Assembly (NCBI GenBank): GCA_902774265.1
Contig: CACYHR010000010.1
Span: 1 to 44,485, forward strand
Length of the DNA: 44,485 bases
Source of the DNA: an uncultured Eubacteriales bacterium
GTDB taxonomy: Bacteria > Bacillota > Clostridia > Peptostreptococcales > Anaerovoracaceae
Direction of reading: 5' to 3'
Below, in pieces: positions 635-16,830 of this stretch (positions are counted from its first letter, which is position 1; each line of letters opens with the position of its first letter). A program made the translations under genes and the position numbers. The notes below the pieces were generated by a model that was not told the DNA's origin, made no database searches, and saw nothing but the letters and a program-made list of their open reading frames with translations.

Positions 635-2266
635 ATGGCAAAGGTTTTTACCACTACAGGAATATGCAATCCTGATGAAAACTATATGGTCAATCTTGAT
701 GAGCGTGTCAGTCAGATCAGAGCGATGGTAGATGCCGGACATTACTTCACCATCAACCGTGCCCGCCAGTATGGCAAGACTACCACACTCAGTCTTCTTG
801 CTGCTTCTTTACGCGATGAATACTGCGTACTCAGTCTGGATTTCCAGGCAATCAGCAACGCTAATTTCACCACGGAAGAAAGATTCGTAAAGGCTTTTTG
901 CAGGCAGCTCAGGAAAAAAGGGCCAAAAGCAGGAATGCCGGACATAATACTCGAACAAATAAACGAGCTGATTGACCGCAAAGAAGAGCAGGCTGCTCTG
1001 GACGAACTGTTTGATGTGCTGAACGAATGGTGCAGTATTTCGGATCTGCCGATAGTCATGCTGATAGATGAAGTAGATTCAGCTACCAATAATCAGGTAT
1101 TTCTTGATTTTCTGGCACAGCTGCGCCTGCAGTATATAGAAAGAAAAGCCGATCCTGAATACCATGCATTCCGGTCCGTGATACTAGCCGGAGTAACAGA
1201 TATCAAAAATCTCAGACGAAAGATCAGACCCGATGAGAGCCATAAAACCAACAGTCCGTGGAACATTGCTGCAGATTTCAACATAGATATGAGCCTGTCT
1301 GAATCAGGCATAAAAGAAATGCTCGATGAGTACGAAGCGGACCATCATAAAGGAATGCAGACCGCTGACATTGCCCGTGAAATACGCGATTACACCGGCG
1401 GATACCCTTTCCTCGTCAGCCGTATCTGCCAGATAATAGACAATGGCCTGATAAGCACACAGACAAGCATTCAGACAAATACTCAAGGGAATGATTCCGG
1501 CAGCAGTATCGAAAATGCCTGGACAATTTCAGGTGTAAGCGAGGCAGTCAGGATCCTCCTTTCGGAGAGCAACACCCTGTTCGACTCACTCATGGGAAAA
1601 GTCCGTGACAACGCCGGGCTCAGCAGTATCCTCAAAAAAATACTGTTCTCAGGTGAAGTCGTTACTTATAATGCATACAATACCGATATTGCTGATGCAG
1701 CGATGTATGGATTCGTCTTCAATGACAACGGCCGGGTTTCCATATCCAACAGGATATTTGAGACTTTGCTGTATAACTACTATCTGAGTATCAGTGAACT
1801 TGAAGGTTCTGAATTATTCAGGCAAGGCACCACTCAAAGGTCAAAGCTGATCAGCGGCGGCCGCCTGAACATGGACGAAGTCATGCGCCAATACATGAGA
1901 GTATTCGATGATATATACGTTGATCAGGACACCGTTTTCGATGAAGCAGAAGGCAGACGAAGATTCCTTCTCTTCCTGAGGCCAATAATAAACGGAACCG
2001 GCAACTACTATATAGAATCACATACACGAAATGACAGACGCATGGATCTGGTAGTTGACTACCTCGGAGAGCGCCATGTTGTAGAACTCAAGATATGGAG
2101 AGGCAGCAGATACCACGCAGACGGAGAAATACAGCTCTCCGATTACCTCAGCTATCTGCACCTCGACAAAGGCTATCTCCTCACCTACAGCTTTAACAAA
2201 AACAAACAGCAGCAAATCATAAACACCACAGTAAACGACAAAACAATCGCAGAAGTGACGGTATAG
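635..2266 (+). CDS. AAA-ATPase-like protein with C-terminal PD-(D/E)XK nuclease-like domain
   Basis: A 543-residue protein of the AAA-ATPase-like / PDDEXK_9 family. The N-terminal part has the family's compact nucleotide-binding loop RQYGKTTTL (about residues 45-53) and a Walker B strand IVMLIDEVDS (about 139-148). The C-terminal 80 residues hold the nuclease-like core: RRMDLVVDYLG followed by HVVELKIWRG, which supplies the D...ExK signature. Family members are often present in many copies in anaerobic gut bacteria; their role is not established, and defence, mobile-element biology or regulation have been suggested. A paralogue on the other strand (13745-15331) is alignable along its whole length. 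The start is preceded by AAAGGACAGTAATCC. Nothing suggests it is in an operon. Confidence 0.85.
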   Translation: MAKVFTTTGICNPDENYMVNLDERVSQIRAMVDAGHYFTINRARQYGKTTTLSLLAASLRDEYCVLSLDFQAISNANFTTEERFVKAFCRQLRKKGPKAGMPDIILEQINELIDRKEEQAALDELFDVLNEWCSISDLPIVMLIDEVDSATNNQVFLDFLAQLRLQYIERKADPEYHAFRSVILAGVTDIKNLRRKIRPDESHKTNSPWNIAADFNIDMSLSESGIKEMLDEYEADHHKGMQTADIAREIRDYTGGYPFLVSRICQIIDNGLISTQTSIQTNTQGNDSGSSIENAWTISGVSEAVRILLSESNTLFDSLMGKVRDNAGLSSILKKILFSGEVVTYNAYNTDIADAAMYGFVFNDNGRVSISNRIFETLLYNYYLSISELEGSELFRQGTTQRSKLISGGRLNMDEVMRQYMRVFDDIYVDQDTVFDEAEGRRRFLLFLRPIINGTGNYYIESHTRNDRRMDLVVDYLGERHVVELKIWRGSRYHADGEIQLSDYLSYLHLDKGYLLTYSFNKNKQQQIINTTVNDKTIAEVTV

Positions 2267-6984: not shown

Positions 6985-8190
6985 TCATTCGTTTTCACGG
7001 ATTTGTTTTCCCGTCCTGATCGTAGCCGCGTATGCGCTGTTGCACAGTCCCAGAATCGCCGAAAAAGTAAACAAGGTCTCGATACCCAGCACCTTCCATA
7101 TCCATCCGCCGAAAAGCGCGACAAGTATCGTTATAAAGTGGTTTACGGACACTCCTGTGGATATCGTCGCACGTACTTCATCAGTATTATCTGCCAGATC
7201 CTGCACATATACATTGGATGCCATTGAGGCAAGTGAAATCACTGAGTCCAGTACATAATTCGCACAGCATACCAGAAAAGCTGTATGCATCGGAAAGATG
7301 TGATGTGCAAATCCGTAGAAGAAACAAACTATCACTAAAATCAGGGTATCGCTTATCATTACTATCTTATAGCCGAATCTGTCTATGATGCGTCCGATAA
7401 TCGGTGATGCGAAATACGAACAGATCGAAGATATCGCGAACAGTATGCTTATATCCATCGCACTTGCGCCGTAGAACAGCACCAGTACATACGGGCCGAA
7501 TGTAAAGAATATCTGCTTTCTCGCTCCGTAGAAAAGCTCCAGCATATAGTACTTGGTATATTTCTTATGAAAGAAGAATCTCCTTTTCGACGGATCCGGT
7601 CTGCTTTCTCCCCTGATCCTAAGAGAAGACAGAAAGCCGAGGAATATTATCGCCGCGCTCAGCAGAAATACAGGTCTGTACAGCGTCTGCTTGTTACCCA
7701 GAAAGTAGAACAGCCCTATGACCACAAAGTATCCCGCCAGCATACCTATCTGATATACCGCACTCTGTCTGCCCAGAGCTACACCGCTCTTGCCTTCTCT
7801 CGCATAATTCAGCGTCAGCGTATTTCTCATTCCGAGCTGAATATGTTCGCCGAGTGAGTAAATGAATATGGCTATTATAACGAGAACTTTGGTCGATGGG
7901 ATGACAGCCTGCATACTCATACCAGCCAGCATGATCAATGCTCCTATCTGATAGATCCTCTCTGCCGTGAATTCATAAAGTGCAGCCAGAACAAATATAA
8001 GCGCAAGCCCCGGCAACTCCCTGAAAAATTCCGAAACACCTTTATCAAACTCTGACATACCGGCAACTTCAGCCAGATAATTGTCAATTATTCCCTTATA
8101 CAGACCGTAAGCTAATGCAAACGTGATTATAGACAGAAAAAACGCTCTGTAGCTCGAATCCGGTCTGAACGCCTCCCTAATACTCTTCAT
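6985..8190 (-). CDS. MFS transporter
   Basis: A 401-residue polytopic membrane protein with about twelve hydrophobic segments. Features of the major facilitator superfamily include a polar loop after the second helix region (TAERIYQIGALIMLAG) and the matching second-half loop IIGRIIDRFGYKIVMI. A long hydrophilic loop between helices 6 and 7 contains RIRGESRPDPSKRRFFFHKK. The substrate cannot be told from sequence. I prefer the ATG at 8190 (MKSIREAF) since GAGGGATA lies directly before it; an upstream in-frame ATG is at 8208. It follows the truncated nitroreductase gene closely on the same strand. Confidence 0.85.
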   Translation of the reverse strand: MKSIREAFRPDSSYRAFFLSIITFALAYGLYKGIIDNYLAEVAGMSEFDKGVSEFFRELPGLALIFVLAALYEFTAERIYQIGALIMLAGMSMQAVIPSTKVLVIIAIFIYSLGEHIQLGMRNTLTLNYAREGKSGVALGRQSAVYQIGMLAGYFVVIGLFYFLGNKQTLYRPVFLLSAAIIFLGFLSSLRIRGESRPDPSKRRFFFHKKYTKYYMLELFYGARKQIFFTFGPYVLVLFYGASAMDISILFAISSICSYFASPIIGRIIDRFGYKIVMISDTLILVIVCFFYGFAHHIFPMHTAFLVCCANYVLDSVISLASMASNVYVQDLADNTDEVRATISTGVSVNHFITILVALFGGWIWKVLGIETLFTFSAILGLCNSAYAATIRTGKQIRENE

Positions 8191-8208
8191 TATCCCTCGC
8201 TTTTGCAA

Positions 8209-8622
8209 TCAATTCTCATTATCTATTCTAAGGATTTTAGAGTAGTCGAGTTCTTCAGGCTTCTTGCCTGATTTGCTTTCTGCAGGGATACCAAGTGAAA
8301 GAATCCCCAGTATCCTATATCGATCCGGAAGTGAAAGGATATTGCGAGTATTTTCCTCGGCATCAACCCCGTCTGCAGACTGTCTCATATGAAGCTGTAT
8401 CCAGCAAGAACCCATGCCCTGATCTGCAACCATAAGGTGAATGTAAGTCAGTGCGATCGAGGAGTCCGCTATCCATGTATCAGCTTTATCCGGATCTGCT
8501 GCAACAACTACTGCAGTTGCTGATCCTTCAAGCATAGCTGCACCGGCCTTCTTTACCGAAGCCAGATTTCTCAGGATCTCTTTGTCTGTAACTGCATAGA
8601 ACTCGCATGGTCTGCGATCCAT
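8209..8622 (-). pseudogene. Nitroreductase-family protein lacking its N-terminus
   Basis: The 137-codon frame begins inside the nitroreductase fold at RRPCEFYAVTDKEILRNL, a block that in full-length members follows ~40 residues carrying the RRSxRxY phosphate/FMN contacts and the APSARNRQPW turn. The rest is well kept: SSIALTYIHLMVADQGMGSC and RYRILGILSLGIPAESK. The missing N-terminal segment would supply key FMN ligands and part of the dimer interface, so the product is probably inactive. The upstream frame stays open toward the divergent helicase gene but no longer resembles the family. A short nitroreductase-like N-terminus is found 4 kb away at 4778. Confidence 0.7.
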
Positions 8623-8690
8623 GTTTAAATGCGTATCTTCAGCGACAAATTGCGAATGCAGCTCAACATGTGCTAAGATTATAACATATT

Positions 8691-10229
8691 ATGAGCAGAA
8701 GCATTTACAGTTGGCAAAAAGAGTGCCTGTCTGCGTGGCAGGATAATAAATGCAGAGGCATCGTATCGGCAGTTACGGGCTCCGGCAAGACTTTTCTTGC
8801 GCTCTGTGCGGCAGCTTCTTTACTGAAGCAGCATCCGGAGCTCAGGATAAGGATCGTTGCACCTACTATTGCTCTTGCCAATCAATGGCGTCAGGCAGTC
8901 ATCAGAACTCCCGATTTAAAGAATATCCGTCCCGGTTTCTACGGGGATGGAATACGCGACGATGTTGACTGTCAGATAATGATATATGTAATCAATTCAG
9001 CCCGCAGCGGTCTGGCTAAACATGTCCGCACCGATTTCGCGCTTGGCAGACATGTTCTCCTTATATGCGATGAATGCCACCGCTATAAAAGCAAAGAAAA
9101 CCACCGTATATTCAGCTTTATCGAAGAGAATATCGACAGTCTCCCGTTGTACTCATGCCTGGGTCTTTCAGCCACCCCATTTAACGGAGACAGGGATGAC
9201 AGGCTGACCGCCGTACTTGGCCGGGAAATTTATAGTTATAACATCGAGAGTGCTATACTCGATGAAACAATAGCACCATTTACCGTATGTCAGATCGCAG
9301 CGGATTTTTTACCTGATGAACTCGAAGAATACAGGATGCTCAGCCACCGCATCGGCCTCACTCTGAAAAAGCTGAAAAATACATATCCATATCTCATAGA
9401 TCTCTCTGAGTCTGCATTTATGAAAGAAGTGAAACGACTCGCCTCCTTATCCGATATGGATCCCGAAGATCCGGCTGCAGCTTTCCTGATGCTGAGTTAT
9501 CAGCGCAAAGACATAACTGTCATGGCGGAAACAAGGATAAGATGCTGTATGAAGCTGCTCGAATCAATGAAAAGCAGCGACCGGATAATCATTTTTTCCG
9601 AAAGAATCGAACAGGCAGAAGGTCTGTACAGACTGATATCCCGCAGATACGGAAACATCGCCGGCATATATCATTCGCAGATGACACGAGATGCCAGAAT
9701 CAGAGTGCTCGGCGATTTCAGAGAAAACCGGGCGAGAATACTCGTCAGCTGCCGCTGTCTTGATGAAGGTTTGGATGTACCTGACGCGAACATAGGCATA
9801 GTTCTTTCTTCGAGTGCTGTCCCAAGACAGAGGATACAGCGTCTGGGCCGCATCGTCAGATGCAGTACAAATAAGGACTCTGCGGTTCTGTATTATATCT
9901 ATGTCAGGGAATCTACAGACGACAGAGCTTATCTTCCGGGTGCAGACAGCAGGAGGGTCTACGACCTCAGGTATTACAGCCGCGAAGATGTATTCTCAAA
10001 TGATATGTACGAATACGCAGCTGCCGGTATGCTCGCAGCCGCAAGATCAGCCGGCATGAATTCATCCGAGCAAAGAGAACTCAGGCTTTGTATAAACGAA
10101 GGATTATGTATGCCCGACTGTCTGCTGGAACCTGCTGTTCTTAAAAAACGCATACGACAGGCGCGATCAGTTCACGAAAAAAACTACTACAACATTATGT
10201 ATAAACTCTCACAGAAATTTATTCGCTGA
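8691..10229 (+). CDS. DEAD/DEAH-type superfamily 2 helicase (DECH)
   Basis: A 512-residue SF2 helicase with all core motifs in order: I AVTGSGKTFLAL (about residues 28-39), Ia IVAPTIALANQWR, II LLICDECHRY, III LGLSATPF, IV RIIIFSERIEQAE, V ILVSCRCLDEGLDVPDAN and VI QRIQRLGRIVR. It resembles the XPB/type III-Res branch, but has no added nuclease domain. It uses ATP to move on or unwind DNA. The start is odd: TTATAACATATT runs straight into the ATG without a ribosome binding site, suggesting a very short or absent leader. It converges with the BrxD-like ATPase gene, only 71 bases separating the two stop codons, which suggests a shared module; this is inference. Confidence 0.9.
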   Translation: MSRSIYSWQKECLSAWQDNKCRGIVSAVTGSGKTFLALCAAASLLKQHPELRIRIVAPTIALANQWRQAVIRTPDLKNIRPGFYGDGIRDDVDCQIMIYVINSARSGLAKHVRTDFALGRHVLLICDECHRYKSKENHRIFSFIEENIDSLPLYSCLGLSATPFNGDRDDRLTAVLGREIYSYNIESAILDETIAPFTVCQIAADFLPDELEEYRMLSHRIGLTLKKLKNTYPYLIDLSESAFMKEVKRLASLSDMDPEDPAAAFLMLSYQRKDITVMAETRIRCCMKLLESMKSSDRIIIFSERIEQAEGLYRLISRRYGNIAGIYHSQMTRDARIRVLGDFRENRARILVSCRCLDEGLDVPDANIGIVLSSSAVPRQRIQRLGRIVRCSTNKDSAVLYYIYVRESTDDRAYLPGADSRRVYDLRYYSREDVFSNDMYEYAAAGMLAAARSAGMNSSEQRELRLCINEGLCMPDCLLEPAVLKKRIRQARSVHEKNYYNIMYKLSQKFIR

Positions 10230-10245
10230 AATATGTATTTCAAAA

Positions 10246-10277
10246 CAGATGCATCGCCTGTCACGGCAGTGCATCTG
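10246..10277. terminator. Hairpin between convergent helicase and ATPase genes
   Basis: CAGATGCA (10246-10253) pairs with TGCATCTG (10270-10277), and the outer bases GAAATAT and ATATTTC can extend the pairing. It lies in the 71-base gap between two converging genes, where a bidirectional terminator is expected. No strong T-run follows in either direction, so efficiency is uncertain. Confidence 0.5.
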
Positions 10278-10300
10278 CTTCATGTTCTGAGATATTTCTC

Positions 10301-11512
10301 TCACAGCTCGTCTATCGAGCTTATATCCGGTGTTTCATCCTCTTCGTAGCTCTCTGTTCCAAGTTCCGAAATTTTTGTGTTTCCGGCCTCCCCGTACTGA
10401 TACAGCTGATCCAGGAATTCGATTGCTGCTCTTATCTTCGTGCGAAGCAGATATCCTCCCGCCTCTGTCTCGCGATACAGCGTTTCCGGGAGCACCGAAG
10501 GAGTCCAGTCATATGCCTTTCCATGGAAATTCTGTATTTCTGCAAGTATCCTGATAACTTCGTCCCTGCTCAGCGGGGCAAGCTCCGGCGCTTCTATTAT
10601 ACTATTCAGCACCATCTCCGCATTTCTGAGCATCTCCGGTTCTTCGTTGAAGATCTCCTGTACATTCTGAAACTCGTGTTTCTTATCTATAACATCCTCA
10701 GTATATGAGGAGCTCATCGCGAAAAATGAGTATGTACTCTCAAGTCTCGGATCCGGTTTGAGAAAGCGTGACATTTCGACATAGCATTTCGCCCTGGTCT
10801 TCTTTCCCAGACGCCCAAGCAGTTCAGCTTCATCAAACAGCAGTATCCATCCGCTGTAACCCAGCTGCCTGAAAAAGTGGCTCATGAAATAAAAGTAATC
10901 CATCGAATGCTTTGTCTTGCTGAAATTCTGATTGAATTTCGCGGCACTGCCGCTGGTCCTGCGATAGCTCTTCCTGACAAGTGAATTAGTCGTAAAGTCC
11001 CCTTCGAGATCCTGCAGAAAAGAATATCTGTCGTCCTCTTCCTGGGTATGGAAAAACGCAGAAAGCATGTAATAGAGTTTATCAGTGTCGAGAGTCTTGG
11101 CAGTATAGCCGAGCAGTTCGCCTGCAACACTGCTTCCCGCAGTCAGCCCTTCTATCTGCTCCCTGAATCCCGGCTGGCGTGCTCCCGGAAGATATGTATT
11201 TGCAATGATCTTAGGATAGAGTATATGAAGTCTGTTCAAAGGAGTCTCCTTGCCAAGAGACACCATCGAAACAACCATATTCTCCGAAGCCGCTATACTC
11301 ATTATCGTATTAAGGAGATGAGTCTTGCCCTCTCCGTATCTGCCCTTGAAGATCATACCGCCGGACCTGCCGCTGTCGCGTACATCATCTATTTTTGACT
11401 GTATCCTTCTGTGCATTTTAGGTCTTGCTTCCGTAAAATATGCACCGACAGCTCTCGAAGGTACGCCGGACCGCAGCGCCTCAACGATCTGCATCGAATT
11501 GAAATCAGACAT
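10301..11512 (-). CDS. BrxD-like P-loop ATPase (DUF2791-type)
   Basis: A 403-residue ATPase. Family marks: IVEALRSGVPSRAVGAYFTE at the N-terminus, Walker A GRYGEGKTHLLNTIM (about residues 57-71), the block VVSMVSLGKETPLNRLHILY, and Walker B GWILLFDEAELLGRLGKKTR. These match the BREX-associated BrxD/DUF2791 ATP-binding proteins as I remember them. In Pgl/BREX loci this family works beside a helicase. The start at 11512 is supported by GGAGGTGCCGATA; it overlaps the end of the upstream ATPase gene by eight bases (ATGTCTGA), showing tight translational coupling. It is the last gene of a three-gene operon and faces the helicase gene. Role inferred: loading or regulating DNA-processing partners. 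Confidence 0.8.
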   Translation of the reverse strand: MSDFNSMQIVEALRSGVPSRAVGAYFTEARPKMHRRIQSKIDDVRDSGRSGGMIFKGRYGEGKTHLLNTIMSIAASENMVVSMVSLGKETPLNRLHILYPKIIANTYLPGARQPGFREQIEGLTAGSSVAGELLGYTAKTLDTDKLYYMLSAFFHTQEEDDRYSFLQDLEGDFTTNSLVRKSYRRTSGSAAKFNQNFSKTKHSMDYFYFMSHFFRQLGYSGWILLFDEAELLGRLGKKTRAKCYVEMSRFLKPDPRLESTYSFFAMSSSYTEDVIDKKHEFQNVQEIFNEEPEMLRNAEMVLNSIIEAPELAPLSRDEVIRILAEIQNFHGKAYDWTPSVLPETLYRETEAGGYLLRTKIRAAIEFLDQLYQYGEAGNTKISELGTESYEEDETPDISSIDEL

Positions 11513-12740
11513 TATCGGCACCTCCATCTTCGGTCATATACTTTATTACAAGATACGGCAGCCCCAGACTTCCGTATTCAGATCTCCTGATAAGCTCAGC
11601 TGCCGCAGCCTCATCTACCGGCTTCAGCTGGTCATCATACCCGAGCGCACCGGCAACTTTTTCGGAAAGCTCCATCAGAGCATCCGGCGTGAATATCTCA
11701 TCCGAAAGCCTGTCGAGATCGATGATATCGGCAAATCTGTTGAATCTGCTGCTGACTACCTCCGACTGCATCCTGAACCACAGCGCCTGATATGACTTTA
11801 AGCCATAGCTCTCGTTGTCCATAAGATCGCGTCTGAACGACATCACAAACATGATATATCTCATGCTGTCTATATCATCGATCAGCTGCCTTATATTCTC
11901 ATATGCATCATCCCGCCGTGTTTTTGTATAACGTATCGCAGCCTCTGATTTCGGCTGCTGCAGGATCTCAAGGTCATCTATAGAAACGAGGATGCCGCTG
12001 AATCCTGCGATATGCACGACCTCTGCAAGAGATCTGAGTAAATGCCTGGCGTTATGCTTTGTAACTCGTGAAGGCGAAAGTCCAATAGCTCTGAGCTGAG
12101 ACAATTTGACCGTCTTGTCTCCATGCATATATGCATTTATCATATCCACATTAGCCTTCTCCATCACGGGATGACCGAGGATATTCCCTGTCAGGAGCGA
12201 GCAGCACGCAGCAAAGGAATTGTCCAGCAGCGGATTGCGGGTGAACTTTTGTCTCAGTGCAGCTCTGATCTCGCTTCTGGTAAAAGCATCTGCAGCGCCC
12301 TCTTCCGAAAGATAATCCATCAGAGTCTGTCCTTCTCTGACAGCCGACGGGTCATATCCGAGTTCCCGGATGATCGTATCCGCACATCTGCGAATCAGAT
12401 TCTCAAGATCACATTGTCTGAGGATCTCAAGATAAACCTCACGAAAATCATGAAGCCATATTTCTTTTGCTGAAAAAGACACCGTAATATAAGCGCTCTG
12501 CTCAGCTCTGTCCAGAAGAAGCCCGGAAAAGTGAGTTTTTCCGGTACCCGGTCTTCCAGTGATGAATTTGATCTTGCTGCCGCCGTTCTTTATATAGAAA
12601 TCAAAATAATGCTTAGATATAAATCCGACAAGATCATCAAGCCCGACTGTAATATCGCTGAGAAGATGTCCTCTCTCAGGAGGCATGGCCTTTCTCAGCA
12701 GTACTGTATCCGACTGTCTGTATGCTAAAGTGTTCGTCAT
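11505..12740 (-). CDS. Second P-loop ATPase of the BrxD-like operon
   Basis: A 411-residue AAA-type ATPase with Walker A FITGRPGTGKTHFSGLLL (about residues 60-77) and a Walker B-like strand SGILVSIDDLEIL (about 245-257), followed by a sensor-like strand MRYIMFVMSFRRDLMDN. The middle of the protein is helical and shows no known enzymatic domain. It is clearly distinct from the downstream BrxD-like gene, yet the general layout (N-terminal P-loop, C-terminal helical part ending in a winged-helix-like GSLGLPYLVIKYM) is similar, so the two may form a mixed complex. It starts two bases after the stop codon of the coiled-coil gene and overlaps the next gene by eight bases. Confidence 0.75.
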   Translation of the reverse strand: MTNTLAYRQSDTVLLRKAMPPERGHLLSDITVGLDDLVGFISKHYFDFYIKNGGSKIKFITGRPGTGKTHFSGLLLDRAEQSAYITVSFSAKEIWLHDFREVYLEILRQCDLENLIRRCADTIIRELGYDPSAVREGQTLMDYLSEEGAADAFTRSEIRAALRQKFTRNPLLDNSFAACCSLLTGNILGHPVMEKANVDMINAYMHGDKTVKLSQLRAIGLSPSRVTKHNARHLLRSLAEVVHIAGFSGILVSIDDLEILQQPKSEAAIRYTKTRRDDAYENIRQLIDDIDSMRYIMFVMSFRRDLMDNESYGLKSYQALWFRMQSEVVSSRFNRFADIIDLDRLSDEIFTPDALMELSEKVAGALGYDDQLKPVDEAAAAELIRRSEYGSLGLPYLVIKYMTEDGGADNV

Positions 12741-12742
12741 TT

Positions 12743-13534
12743 CTATTCCTCAGTTGTAAGTGAACTAAGTGTCGTTATATATGATTCTACGCCTGTGCGG
12801 CTGAGCACACGTATCCCGGTCTTACCATCCCTGCTTGTACCGAATGTGAAAATGCGTCCGTTCTTTGTGACCCATGCGTCCGGACCAGCCTCATAAATTC
12901 TCGCAAGATCAAACGAGAACGCCTGCATATCATACTCTTTTCTGGCACGCGCCATCGGTGTAAGGGCCTTATAAATCTTTGTCAGGGCAACAGCAGAACC
13001 TACACGTGATCCATTCTTGAAACAGGTCGTATCATATGCTTCTGCCAGCTCATTCATAAAAGTGAGTTCATTGAAATTGGCCTTATACAGCTTTTCCTGT
13101 CCCTGTTTTATCGTATCAGCTACTGCAGACGGACGGAAACTTGCAGCCTTCTTACGGTTGATCCAGACCTCTTCAGGATGCTCATCGTCTCCGTATATCC
13201 TTACTCTATACGGGAACATCTCATAGACGCCCTTTTCCCCGATAACATCAATCCCTTTCGCAGAGCATGCCTCGAGCAGCTGCTCTGTAAAATCACCGCT
13301 GCTGAAATACTCCTTCGTATCAAACGAGTTAACCGCCTCGTCGAACGCCGCCGTCCTCTCCTTAAGAAGATCCGCAGCACTCAGGAATTGCTGAAGATCT
13401 TTCTTCATATCTGTCAGAGCGCCGGACTCCATCTCCTTCACCACTCTTTTGTTAAGTCTTGTAACAGTCCCGACAGAATCCTTCAGATCCTTTTCAAGTT
13501 CAAGCAACTCAGCATACAGTTCCTCGTAATTCAT
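12743..13534 (-). CDS. Coiled-coil protein of unknown function, first gene of the ATPase operon
   Basis: A 263-residue protein; I do not recognise its family. The first ~90 residues are charged and heptad-like (ELLELEKDLKDSVGTVTRLN, DMKKDLQQFLSAADLLKERT), suggesting a coiled coil. The second half looks globular, with EEVWINRKKAASFRPSAVAD and TFGTSRDGKTGIRVLSRTGV. No catalytic motif is evident, so it may be an adaptor. The ATG at 13534 follows AAGGGATTTAGACAAT; a longer frame upstream (to 13606) has a hydrophobic but poorly supported extension. Two bases separate its stop from the next start, so the three genes are certainly cotranscribed. Confidence 0.75.
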   Translation of the reverse strand: MNYEELYAELLELEKDLKDSVGTVTRLNKRVVKEMESGALTDMKKDLQQFLSAADLLKERTAAFDEAVNSFDTKEYFSSGDFTEQLLEACSAKGIDVIGEKGVYEMFPYRVRIYGDDEHPEEVWINRKKAASFRPSAVADTIKQGQEKLYKANFNELTFMNELAEAYDTTCFKNGSRVGSAVALTKIYKALTPMARARKEYDMQAFSFDLARIYEAGPDAWVTKNGRIFTFGTSRDGKTGIRVLSRTGVESYITTLSSLTTEE

Positions 13535-13744
13535 ATTGTCTAAATCCCTTCTTTTGAAAATATAAAACAGTGTAAAAAATCTTGTTAATTCTATCACAAA
13601 ACACAAAACATATACAGTACTAAAATATTCTGTTTTTTGTATTCAATATTATTACTCATAATGCTTACTAAGCTCTGTAATCATCTGTGTTAAATTGTGC
13701 AAGGCATCTTTTTTAGCAATTACACTTATGCCAGAGGATATAAC

Positions 13745-15331
13745 TTAGAGCATGCCCTCGAACAGGACTTTGCTGCCGAAGGTCTTTCTTTTGACGCCGG
13801 TCTCTTTTTTTCTGTTGAAATTAAAGCTCAACATATAACCTGAATCCAGTCCGAAGTAGTCAAGATATTCGCAGATCTGCTGTTCTCCCTTTTCATTGTA
13901 GCTGTTTCCATGCCATATCTTCAGTTCGATAATATACTGTTTGCCCAAATAATCAATTATCACATCTGTTCTTCGCTGATCACGGGTTTGCGCTTCAATA
14001 TAGTAGTTGCCTGTCCCATTGATGATAGGCTTCAGATACAATAGAAATAACTCTCTTCCATCCTTTTCTCTGAATTTATCCACAAGCGGGCCGCAGACCT
14101 CTGTATATGTTTTGATAAAATGATCCATGATCAATGGCACATCAAGCACATCGTCATGTATAAAAATACTTCGTCCTAAATCTCCGTTTCGGCCGAAAAC
14201 ATTATCTTTAAAATCAGCATCTGAAAGAAAAAGATTGTACAGCAAGGTTTCAAAAATACGATTTGAAACAGCTATGACGCCGCCGTCATTCACTATAAAC
14301 CCATACATCTCCATCTGCAGAATAGACTCCTGCATCGGATTATATGTGATTCGGGTACCCTCCATCAGAACGCTGTAAAGAGCATCTCTGAGCTCCGGAT
14401 AGTTGATAAGCTTTCCGGTCAGGGAATCAAACAGAGTATTTTTTTCAGTAAGAATCAGCTTTATCGCTTCATCAAAGCCATCTTTAGTCCACGCTTTTGA
14501 GAGGCCAAATCCGTTTACCACCTCACCGTCTATCAATTGGCATATCCTGCTGACAAGAAACGGATATCCGTTCGTGTAATCCCTTAGCAGCTTTGCTATC
14601 TCCTCAATATTCATCCCTGTTTTATGATCTGCTTCATATTCCTCAAGCATACCGGCAATACCTTCAGAGGAAAGACTCATGTCGATATTGAAGTCAACAG
14701 CAATATTCCACGGGCTGTTCAATTGATGAAGCTTTTCATCCCTAATCTTGCTTCTCAAATGTTTTACATCAGTGACACCCGCCAGAATGACCGATTTAAA
14801 CGCAGGATAACCCTCTGAATCTCTCTTTATATATCCCGACCTCAATTGAGCCAGAAAATCAAGAAACACCTGATTGTTTGTAGCGCTGTCAACCTCATCA
14901 ATAATTAGAACAATATCCTTTCCCACTGAGGCGCACCAGTCTGTCAGCAGCTCGAACAGTTCCTGCAGCTTCGCCTTTTCCTTTGATCTTCCTATGTACT
15001 CATCAAGAGTTTCAACTATTTCCTTCGGGATAAAGAGTCCGGTTCTGGTTTTGCTCTTTATAATGCGGCAAAACGCCTGAACAAACATTCCCTCCGTCTT
15101 AAAGTCAGCCGCCGAGATGTCCTGAAAATCCAGACTTATTACTTCATGATTCGGAATCAGCATCCTTCTGAGCATAGTAAGAGTAGTCGTCTTTCCATAT
15201 TGTCGGGCACGATTGATGCAAAAATATTCACCGTCATCAATCATTGCCTTGATCCTGGCAAGACGGCTGCTGATATCCACCATATAGTGTTTTTCCGGTA
15301 TACAAACCCCCGTTGTATTAAATCTCTTCAT
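13745..15331 (-). CDS. AAA-ATPase-like protein with C-terminal PD-(D/E)XK nuclease-like domain
   Basis: A 528-residue paralogue of the protein at 635-2266. Shared blocks include RARQYGKTTTLTMLRRML (nucleotide loop), DIVLIIDEVDSATNNQVFLD (Walker B), LNSPWNIAVDFNIDMSLS and, near the C-terminus, INGTGNYYIEAQTR, RRTDVIIDYLG and YIIELKIWHG with the D...ExK nuclease signature. The start follows AGGTGATAGTCATAA. It lies 138 bases upstream of the BrxD-like operon on the same strand, but the gap is AT-rich and could hold a promoter, so joint function with that operon is open. Function of the family is not established. Confidence 0.85.
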   Translation of the reverse strand: MKRFNTTGVCIPEKHYMVDISSRLARIKAMIDDGEYFCINRARQYGKTTTLTMLRRMLIPNHEVISLDFQDISAADFKTEGMFVQAFCRIIKSKTRTGLFIPKEIVETLDEYIGRSKEKAKLQELFELLTDWCASVGKDIVLIIDEVDSATNNQVFLDFLAQLRSGYIKRDSEGYPAFKSVILAGVTDVKHLRSKIRDEKLHQLNSPWNIAVDFNIDMSLSSEGIAGMLEEYEADHKTGMNIEEIAKLLRDYTNGYPFLVSRICQLIDGEVVNGFGLSKAWTKDGFDEAIKLILTEKNTLFDSLTGKLINYPELRDALYSVLMEGTRITYNPMQESILQMEMYGFIVNDGGVIAVSNRIFETLLYNLFLSDADFKDNVFGRNGDLGRSIFIHDDVLDVPLIMDHFIKTYTEVCGPLVDKFREKDGRELFLLYLKPIINGTGNYYIEAQTRDQRRTDVIIDYLGKQYIIELKIWHGNSYNEKGEQQICEYLDYFGLDSGYMLSFNFNRKKETGVKRKTFGSKVLFEGML

Positions 15332-15436
15332 TTATGACTATCACCTCGTGCAGCTATCATAAATATCACTCTCATAATACATGAACAGCCAATCACTCTC
15401 TTCTAACCTCTTCAGCGTTTCCTGAACCATTCGAAA

Positions 15437-15495
15437 AGATTATACCATTAATAAAATACGATTAAAATAAAGGAAAAGGACATTATCAAGGCGAA
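15437..15495 (+). repeat. Orphan copy of the leader seen before the gene at 635
   Basis: GATTATACCATTAATAAAAT and AAAGGAAAAGGACATT match the plus-strand leader at 571-630, but no coding sequence follows here. It lies just upstream of, and pointing away from, the AAA-ATPase gene at 13745-15331. It probably marks where a third family member once started. Confidence 0.45.
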
Positions 15496-15909
15496 TGAAA
15501 ACCATCTTAAGAAATATAAGTCTGCTCACTTAGCCCTATCCGAATCACTATATTCACTATGAGCAAATGCAAAGAATCGCTGCCCTTAAATATCACCTTT
15601 GTGTCTGAACGTAAACCACTTATTAAGAATATAGCTCAGAATACTGGTAAAAATATAGTTCATAAATTTCATTCATGTTACTTTATTATAATGCAGACAG
15701 AGCTCAAATTGTTTCATTTTCCTGGTAAACCTTATTTTCTGCCTCATTTGAATGCACATTTGCATGCACAGCTCAATCAGTTCACAGATGGCTGGGCTTT
15801 TCGATTTTTTGTGTTATTATAAAGGCGTATTCTATCTGCTGTCCCGTAGTTACAGTGAGTGGAGATACAGATCATTAAAGAGCGATTTATAAAAGAAGGG
15901 GCTGTCTTT
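15496..15909. other. AT-rich intergenic region before corA
   Basis: No convincing gene. A plus-strand frame at 15559-15822 lacks a ribosome binding site and recognisable content. The last hundred bases, ending in TTTTTTGTGTTATTATAAAG, are AT-rich and may contain the corA promoter. Confidence 0.4.
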
Positions 15910-16830
15910 ATGAGTTATTATCTTTTGGCTGACATCATGCAGCCGTGCACAGAGAAGGAACTGCATGCCCAGACAAAATATAAATACGTGGCTGTTCTTA
16001 CGACGTCCGAATGGGTCAGGGAGCGCGACCGCTTTGACATGGGCATTGAGCTGGAGCCTCTTGCCGGAGATATCCACAATACAAAGGCGGAGGTAAATTA
16101 TGACTCTCTTACCGGAACATTCCGTATCCCTGACCGCGATAATATCGGAGAGAATGACTACCGCTTCGCATTCGCTTTGGATGAAAAGGGTATCGTATTC
16201 ATCGACGACAGCGGCATGGCGGAGCAGATGATCGATTCTATAAGGAGGACGAAACGCTGGCGCAGACCGAGCCTGGAACGCTTCCTCCATGATTTTTTGG
16301 AGCAGATAGTGGAAAAGGATCTTTCACTGCTCGAGCGATATGAAAATGAGCTGAGTCGTATCGAAGATGCGATCATGAACTATGAGCAGGAAGACCTCGG
16401 ACGGGTCCATGAGATACATAACGATGTCCGAAAGATTCTGGTCCACTATGAGCAGATGATCGATATGACACAGGAGTTCGAAGAGAATGAGAACGGGTTT
16501 TTCAGCGAAGAGAATCTGCGATACATCCATCTGTTCATGACGCTCATATCGAGACGGCGCGATTACGCCGTTTCTATCCGGGACTATACGAAGCAGGTGC
16601 ATGATCTCTATCACGCACATCTGGAGATGAAGCAAAACAGAATAATGACGATCCTTACCGTAGTCACTACTATCTTCATGCCTCTGACGCTGATAGTCGG
16701 CTGGTATGGAATGAACTTCCGCTATATGCCGGAGCTTGAATGGCGATACGGATATCCCGTGGTGATCGCTGTAAGCCTTGTGATTGTGATATCATGTCTG
16801 ATATTTTTTAAAAAGAAAAAATGGCTGTAG
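15910..16830 (+). CDS. corA: CorA-family divalent cation transporter
   Basis: A 306-residue CorA-type channel protein for Mg2+ or related ions. The N-terminal ~150 residues form the cytoplasmic alpha/beta domain, followed by long helices (SLLERYENELSRIEDAIMNY, DVRKILVHYEQMIDMTQEF). Near the C-terminus are two membrane segments, with the signature YGMNF directly after the first (TILTVVTTIFMPLTLIVGW) and a positive KKKKWL tail. The ATG at 15910 is chosen because AGAAGGGG precedes it; an upstream in-frame ATG exists at 15859. It stands alone on the plus strand. Confidence 0.88.
   Translation: MSYYLLADIMQPCTEKELHAQTKYKYVAVLTTSEWVRERDRFDMGIELEPLAGDIHNTKAEVNYDSLTGTFRIPDRDNIGENDYRFAFALDEKGIVFIDDSGMAEQMIDSIRRTKRWRRPSLERFLHDFLEQIVEKDLSLLERYENELSRIEDAIMNYEQEDLGRVHEIHNDVRKILVHYEQMIDMTQEFEENENGFFSEENLRYIHLFMTLISRRRDYAVSIRDYTKQVHDLYHAHLEMKQNRIMTILTVVTTIFMPLTLIVGWYGMNFRYMPELEWRYGYPVVIAVSLVIVISCLIFFKKKKWL

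Follow-up and report, generated by a model that had tools for sequence, protein, structure and literature searches.

The window analyzed here, a stretch of 44,485 nucleotides (contig CACYHR010000010.1 of assembly GCA_902774265.1, positions 1 to 44,485) from an uncultured Eubacteriales bacterium of the Anaerovoracaceae, carries at 8691–13534 an operon coding for an adaptor protein and two ATPases of the PF10923 (BrxC/BrxD) family, which faces an XPB-like DNA helicase of superfamily 2 (SF2). The three operon genes (hereinafter the trio) are a conserved unit: they keep their order and their linkage to DNA motors across genomes, and the motor itself is replaced from one clade to another, the trio remaining intact beside unrelated helicase classes and the Cas3 of type I CRISPR-Cas (clustered regularly interspaced short palindromic repeats) systems. 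This suggests that the trio is a control module, not yet named, which activates DNA motors and is probably directed against invading DNA. Specifically, we posit a reusable heteromeric AAA+ module, akin to the origin recognition complex (ORC)/Cdc6 proteins, that loads, licenses or restrains varied DNA motors, most likely in defense, a reading to which we would give a probability of about 0.55. An earlier note, made from the letters of the window, had proposed a stand-alone DNA-processing or anti-phage module of three touching or overlapping genes converging with an SF2 helicase. That arrangement is real, all four genes being intact open frames where the note had placed them; the re-use of the trio with several motor classes, including Cas3, is beyond what it foresaw. 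The four genes are:

8691..10229, + strand: SF2 DNA helicase/translocase, XPB-like, helicase core (512 amino acids; PF04851 at 1.1e-19, PF00271 at 1.7e-18)
10301..11527, − strand: ATPase-b, PF10923 (408 amino acids; PF10923 at 3.7e-21; P-loop GRYGEGKT and DE Walker B intact)
11505..12740, − strand: ATPase-a, PF10923 (411 amino acids; PF10923 at 6e-29; P-loop GRPGTGKT intact)
12743..13534, − strand: adaptor protein, ATG at 13534 (helical hairpin followed by an alpha/beta domain)

The helicase, on the forward strand, converges on the operon, which on the reverse strand runs from the adaptor through ATPase-a to ATPase-b. A gap of 2 bp separates the adaptor from ATPase-a, and the two ATPase frames overlap by 23 bp counting from the first start codon, the conserved start of ATPase-b being probably at 11512. 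The guanine-cytosine content of the four genes (0.47–0.48) is close to the 0.445 of the window.

Conservation of the trio

Relatives were gathered from genome samples that overlap one another: a family search (10 of 148 genomes matched, four of them strongly), a phylum sample (20 of 398; the neighborhood in G518 was left out), class samples (27 of 113, 4 of 20, 6 of 63 and 2 of 15) and an order sample (5 of 198, four of them distant; G799 was left out). In the class sample with 27 matches, 25 neighborhoods were examined, those of G613 and G639, at contig ends, being left out, and a contig scan with one protein added two loci. Altogether 51 loci from 50 genomes were examined. Outside these stand six of the ten family matches, which are weak single-ATPase matches (E 2.5e-12 to 9e-4); no adaptor was found in G029, G056, G099 and G016 (L014–L017), and G007 and G146 were left out. 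Three of the four distant order matches (L141–L143) have one ATPase only and were likewise excluded.

Adaptor, ATPase-a and ATPase-b follow each other on one strand in 48 of the 51 loci, the window included, and mostly overlap or sit within a few tens of bases of each other, which bears out the description of the three genes as an operon. The exceptions are L050 and L133, which are truncated and without an adaptor, and L100, with ATPase-b only. In L050 (885–2488) and L133 (7137–10017) the adaptor is gone together with the facing ends of the helicase and ATPase-a; it seems that a deletion across the shared promoter region removed them all.

DNA motors linked to the trio

In 40 of the 51 loci the trio has a DNA motor gene next to it or in the same run of genes: 13 are XPB-type, 15 superfamily 1 (SF1), 4 SNF2, 5 Cas3 or Cas3-like, 2 BrxL and 1 another SF2 helicase (in L060). 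Representative partners were identified by profile search, and the remaining ones by their phmmer similarity to these. The SF1 partner, which combines AAA_11/AAA_12 with a Top1-type zinc ribbon, lies after ATPase-b in 14 of its loci and before the adaptor in L135. SNF2 helicases occur in L058, L059, L134 and L098, the partner in L059 being confirmed as SNF2 in a search of its own (2.5e-286), and BrxL stands beside the trio in L051 and L136. L052 and L096 run into contig ends, a Cas3-like helicase lies about 4 kb from L100, and G122, one of the genomes lacking an adjacent motor, has its helicase elsewhere. In a tree of 48 loci (L045, L050 and L060, too short or too distant, were left out) the type of partner follows the clades with supports of 99–100. 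L098, whose partner is SNF2, branches within the CRISPR clade beside L099 (support 100), and hence reads as a motor exchange.

The window helicase displays the motifs GSGKT, DECH, SATP and QRLGR; the nearest solved sequences are RAD25/XPB (6e-36 in a search from alignment A4), and Pfam reports no nuclease domain in it. XPB-like helicases adjoin the trio in 13 of the 51 loci (the window, L013, L018, L019, L042–L045, L050, L095 and L131–L133). They point away from the operon in 12 of these, ten being head-to-head with the adaptor and those of L050 and L133 with the ATPase-a remnant; the window alone has the convergent arrangement, and so the linkage has survived rearrangement. Of 24 trio genomes, 13 have a window-type trio, and 12 of these gave a helicase match at E <= 1e-25, as against 0 of the 11 genomes whose trio is of another type. 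Moreover, pairwise distances among the helicases correlate with those among each of the three operon proteins (Mantel r 0.916, 0.947 and 0.934; p 1e-4; 12 loci), which upholds the view that it belongs to the unit. Even in G122, where the helicase is on another contig, it branches where the trio of that genome does, with modest supports (68 and 78). In the family sample, five of the 148 genomes have the helicase, three of them with the trio. Accordingly, the linkage expected by the earlier note holds in the clade of the window, except for L011 and L012, but outside that clade other motors take the place of the helicase. In L011 (3762–6426) and L012 (5632–7988), neither of which has an adjacent helicase, the trio is preceded by two further ATPase-like genes that are mutually related.

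The trio thus stays constant as the DNA motor varies, and the simplest mechanism to account for this is a DNA-bound AAA+ assembly that, with its adaptor, loads or licenses the motor. As the trio remains intact when the motor differs, the module is in effect isolated, making the loader idea testable by motor swaps. The same motor families invite a second explanation, namely a DNA repair or replication-restart module in which the AAA+ pair would load a motor resembling XPB, Dna2 or SNF2 onto chromosomal DNA that is damaged, the CRISPR and BREX (bacteriophage exclusion) neighborhoods reflecting shared DNA-processing needs. XPB-like, SF1 and SNF2 motors do act in repair as well, and polC comes immediately after the operon in L012. 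We nevertheless consider this explanation unlikely, since the trio occurs patchily (in 5 of 198 genomes of the order sample, four of them distant, and in 20 of the 398 of the phylum sample, with no match in either of the two same-genus genomes examined) and is found inside cas clusters, next to BrxL, and close to genes for DUF6079 (BrxC) and methylases.

Further neighbors were seen at individual loci. In L055 (6205–18646) the trio is accompanied by a helix-turn-helix gene; two genes away from the adaptor there is DUF6079 (BrxC) in full length, and on the opposite side, 1.2 kb from ATPase-b, an N6/N4 methylase. The same genome, G320, also holds the CRISPR-linked trio L048. A D12-class adenine methylase follows ATPase-b in L056. 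In L053 (624–10509), where ATPase-b is split over two frames, an Hsp70-like gene and then a metallo-beta-lactamase-like gene come after the trio on its strand.

Trios in type I CRISPR-cas clusters

Six trio loci (L046, L047, L048, L049, L097 and L099) lie within type I cas clusters. With subtypes taken as those of the closest profile, L048 is nearest to I-B (L099 is similar to L048) and L049 to I-D, the cas7 of L046 is nearest to I-A and that of L097 is just over the I-D Csc2 cut-off; L047 has cas6 only and then reaches the contig end. Cas3 is clear in L046, L048, L049 and L099, and L097/L140 have a Cas3-like protein. Several cas genes were named by their position, their profile match being below the cut-off or lacking (cas5 and cas8 of L046, cas8 of L048, csc3 of L049 and a 692-amino-acid gene of L097). 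ATPase-b and cas1 are 2 bp apart in L097 and 8 bp apart in L099. A simple exact-repeat script detected CRISPR arrays in the fetched DNA of three of the six: 65 and 22 repeats in L049, counted from two slightly overlapping stretches, 46 in L099, and 7 alongside L097. A small hydrophobic protein adjoining the adaptor is common to L046 (12280–12648) and L097 (12270–12674), and a DUF4282 gene follows ATPase-b in L049 (8390–8749).

These operons, from other classes of the same phylum, resemble the window in having a homologous trio, here in one run with cas3, cas5, cas7 and cas1. They differ from it in that the genome of the window (G000) has no match to Cas1 (PF01867), its motor being instead a stand-alone XPB-like helicase; the exact-repeat script found no array-like repeat in the window. 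Among 30 trio genomes of non-CRISPR types, 15 have PglZ and 20 have Cas1 over the cut-off; among the matches listed, these lie on contigs other than that of the trio, except for one Cas1 in G570, about 36 kb away.

We tentatively propose, at a little under even odds, that a portable AAA+ licensing module has been adopted by several immune systems, that in some type I CRISPR-Cas systems of more than one subtype the interference by Cas3 or the Cas1-side uptake of spacers needs an ORC/Cdc6-like loader, and that the window has the stand-alone XPB-like version. Should some type I systems prove to depend on a loader for Cas3, this step would need a place in models of CRISPR interference. Presence in type I loci could also be read in terms of TnsC, which in CRISPR-associated transposons recruits to sites chosen by Cascade: the ATPases would polymerize on DNA and bring in an effector wherever Cascade or the helicase selects a site. 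Among the fold matches of ATPase-b, at rank 13 and E 0.013, is TnsC of a type I-B Cascade-TniQ-TnsC complex, which points the same way. To our knowledge, however, CRISPR-associated transposons are without Cas3, which is clear in four of the six CRISPR-linked trio loci and matched by a Cas3-like protein in a fifth, the sixth ending at the contig end; we therefore hold TnsC-like targeting to be very improbable.

The paired ATPases and the adaptor

Both ATPases match PF10923, with scores of 101.6 bits for ATPase-a and 76.0 bits for ATPase-b against a gathering score of 22.2, so that the profile check recommended in the earlier note came out positive. The profiles of the two families also align with each other at 99% probability in hhalign. 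Together, these results make the ATPases look like paralogues: a second ATPase is indeed present, but it is not the dissimilar one that had been described. Sequence profiles reach DnaI and DnaA around the P-loop, at the detection limit. The AlphaFold model of ATPase-b (predicted local distance difference test, pLDDT, 87.7) gives weak fold matches to RdrA, BrxC, Hda/DnaA, TnsC and ORC/Cdc6.

The best of these is RdrA (E 7.7e-4, template modeling (TM) score 0.31), which raises the alternative of a sensor of stress or phage that, as RdrA does in RADAR, acts via abortive infection; the helicase would detect DNA ends or replication, and a further protein would serve as effector. Helicase-linked sensing is indeed known, as the available text of PMC12278908 describes for Hachiman. 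However, the resemblance to RdrA is weak, and among the neighbors scanned, which are a part of all, what recurs from clade to clade is a DNA motor, with no recurring effector seen; we regard such a sensor as quite unlikely.

The two ATPases of the proposed loader differ in the fate of their P-loops. That of ATPase-b fits the strict pattern in 47 of the 51 loci; GKT is kept with an altered first glycine in L051, L052 and L136, and L050 is truncated, GKT or GKS being present in every locus whose region is there. The P-loop of ATPase-a is lost in 13 of 48 scoreable loci, namely all eight CRISPR-clade loci that have ATPase-a, three SNF2 loci and two window-type loci with a lysine-to-arginine change; the sequence YGYGKT of L060 was counted as kept. 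One active and one eroded subunit are a feature of heteromeric ORC-like or clamp-loader-like assemblies.

The adaptor, scanned from one codon after its ATG, matches no family above the cut-off in Pfam or NCBIfam, nor any in PADLOC at E 0.5, and thus remains the unrecognized protein that the earlier note took it to be. Its AlphaFold model (pLDDT 92.1) shows a long helical hairpin (residues 3–69) followed by an alpha/beta domain, for which the fold search of the PDB returned no match at E <= 0.001. The adaptor alignment (A6) holds 23 sequences.

Comparison with named systems

No named system among those compared (BREX, Shango, PbeABCD, Dnd, and CRISPR-Cas in the genome of the window) fits the locus. 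Its description as a BREX-related minimal system reduces to the shared PF10923 family: in the window's genome (91% complete) the best PglZ (PF08665) score is 21.4 bits, under the 25-bit cut-off, and the NCBIfam BrxD equivalog NF033438, with a cut-off of 350 bits, gives 77.5 for ATPase-a and 43.4 for ATPase-b, both far below it. BREX was set aside on these two grounds. No DUF6079 or methylase passes the Pfam cut-off in the eight window proteins scanned (6985–16830), a genome-wide search for these not having been made. The closest parallel is the BrxD–BrxHI dyad of type 2 BREX (Pgl), where a PF10923 ORC/Cdc6-like ATPase is tightly linked to an SF2 helicase; in the accessible text of PMC12839542, BrxD is proposed as the loader of BrxHI. 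Unlike that dyad, the locus described here has two paralogous ATPases, a conserved adaptor, no PglZ above the cut-off, and a helicase that is XPB-like rather than Ski2-like.

Shango (SngABC) is likewise a small operon with an ATPase and a helicase, for which tested anti-phage activity is reported in the available part of PMC10250203. The PADLOC SngB model matches the two ATPases at 1.7e-12 and 2.4e-12, the BrxD model scoring higher for ATPase-a and equally for ATPase-b. Shango has a TerB-like protein and a single ATPase, whereas the present locus has a pair of ATPases and its adaptor matches no family. As the adaptor shows no match to TerB in Pfam, PADLOC or NCBIfam, nor do any of the Pfam-scanned neighbors, the suggested TerB link fell away, and Shango, defined by the TerB-like SngA, was rejected.

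Among the PADLOC models, PbeA matches the window helicase best (4.3e-63), for the helicase part alone: residues 4–408 align to positions 252–634 of the PbeA profile, and Pfam finds no PLD/HKD domain. According to the accessible text of PMC10853773, PbeA includes a nuclease of the HKD type and PbeC belongs to the ABC ATPases. PbeABCD was discarded, the helicase having no HKD nuclease and the linked ATPases being of PF10923 and not CxC ABC ATPases (the DndE-like PbeD was not searched for). The Dnd phosphorothioate restriction enzyme (TIGR04095) was also dismissed, the helicase scoring 150.8 bits against the NCBIfam cut-off of 600. In being a small gene module adopted by several unrelated immune systems, the trio recalls the nuclease–protease pairs recurrently acquired in immunity (PMC12799240, in its available part), which comprise other proteins in place of the ATPase trio and DNA motors. 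No description of the trio, or of PF10923 ATPases in cas operons, was found in the literature, our coverage of which excluded bioRxiv preprints and most subscription papers.

A proposed mechanism and its weighing

If the trio is indeed a loader of DNA motors, ATPase-b would be its ATP-driven subunit and ATPase-a the partner subunit, with a P-loop lost in some lineages, and the coiled-coil adaptor would hold the complex together or read the target. The module might assemble on DNA and then load, license or hold in check the co-encoded motor, i.e., the XPB-like SF2 translocase in the window and SF1, SNF2, BrxL or type I Cas3 in its relatives. From the comparisons above, we infer that the trio forms a complex, loads on DNA, activates the motor and functions in defense. 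The defensive role is favored because of the patchy occurrence of the trio, its cas, BrxL and BrxC neighbors, and the kinship of its ATPases to those of Shango and BREX.

Several observations weigh against the motor-loading module in defense. The window is not in an obvious defense island, its neighbors named by Pfam being MFS, nitroreductase and CorA. No motor was recognized beside the trio in L011, L012 and L053–L057, the neighbors in the last five having been scanned in part. The genome G058 (87% complete) has a window-type trio with no helicase match; conversely, G039 and G061 have a helicase match without a trio match. The fold matches of ATPase-b have TM scores of only about 0.2–0.4. Peptide-pattern scans found no match to ATPase-a in 50,697 phage records and none to the window ATPase-b in viral contigs or in plasmids. 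Finally, the loci were found through the ATPases and some belong to one genus, so the locus counts are not independent samples.

Neighboring genes and mobile relatives

Besides the neighbors named above, another gene near the operon codes for what we take to be a carbonic anhydrase. The nitroreductase-like frame at 8209–8622 covers only positions 84–166 of the 167 of the profile and is perhaps a remnant. The window also has two copies of a gene combining AAA and PD-(D/E)XK-like domains, at 635–2266 (+) and 13745–15331 (−). The latter was considered as a fifth member of the locus and rejected, having no relative at E <= 1e-10 among the loci fetched up to L162; its sole match among these, L001, is the same window DNA. 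Given the second copy and the lack of relatives in other loci, it appears to be a gene repeated within this genome.

The idea that phages or plasmids carry the window type was set aside, the scans of both ATPases having come out empty. More distant versions do occur on plasmids: the CRISPR-type ATPase-b has four matches in plasmid records, each of them distant, and the helicase alone has 45, every one under 60% identity. Outside the phylum, the Desulfomonile tiedjei plasmid pDESTI.01, which also carries AbiE genes, codes in one run (DESTI_RS28080–28095) for an adaptor (3.4e-16), two ATPases and a 701-amino-acid helicase. A Deinococcus psychrotolerans plasmid (L164, 3984–16936) has two successive ATPase–helicase pairs, with the helicases under the same protein accession.

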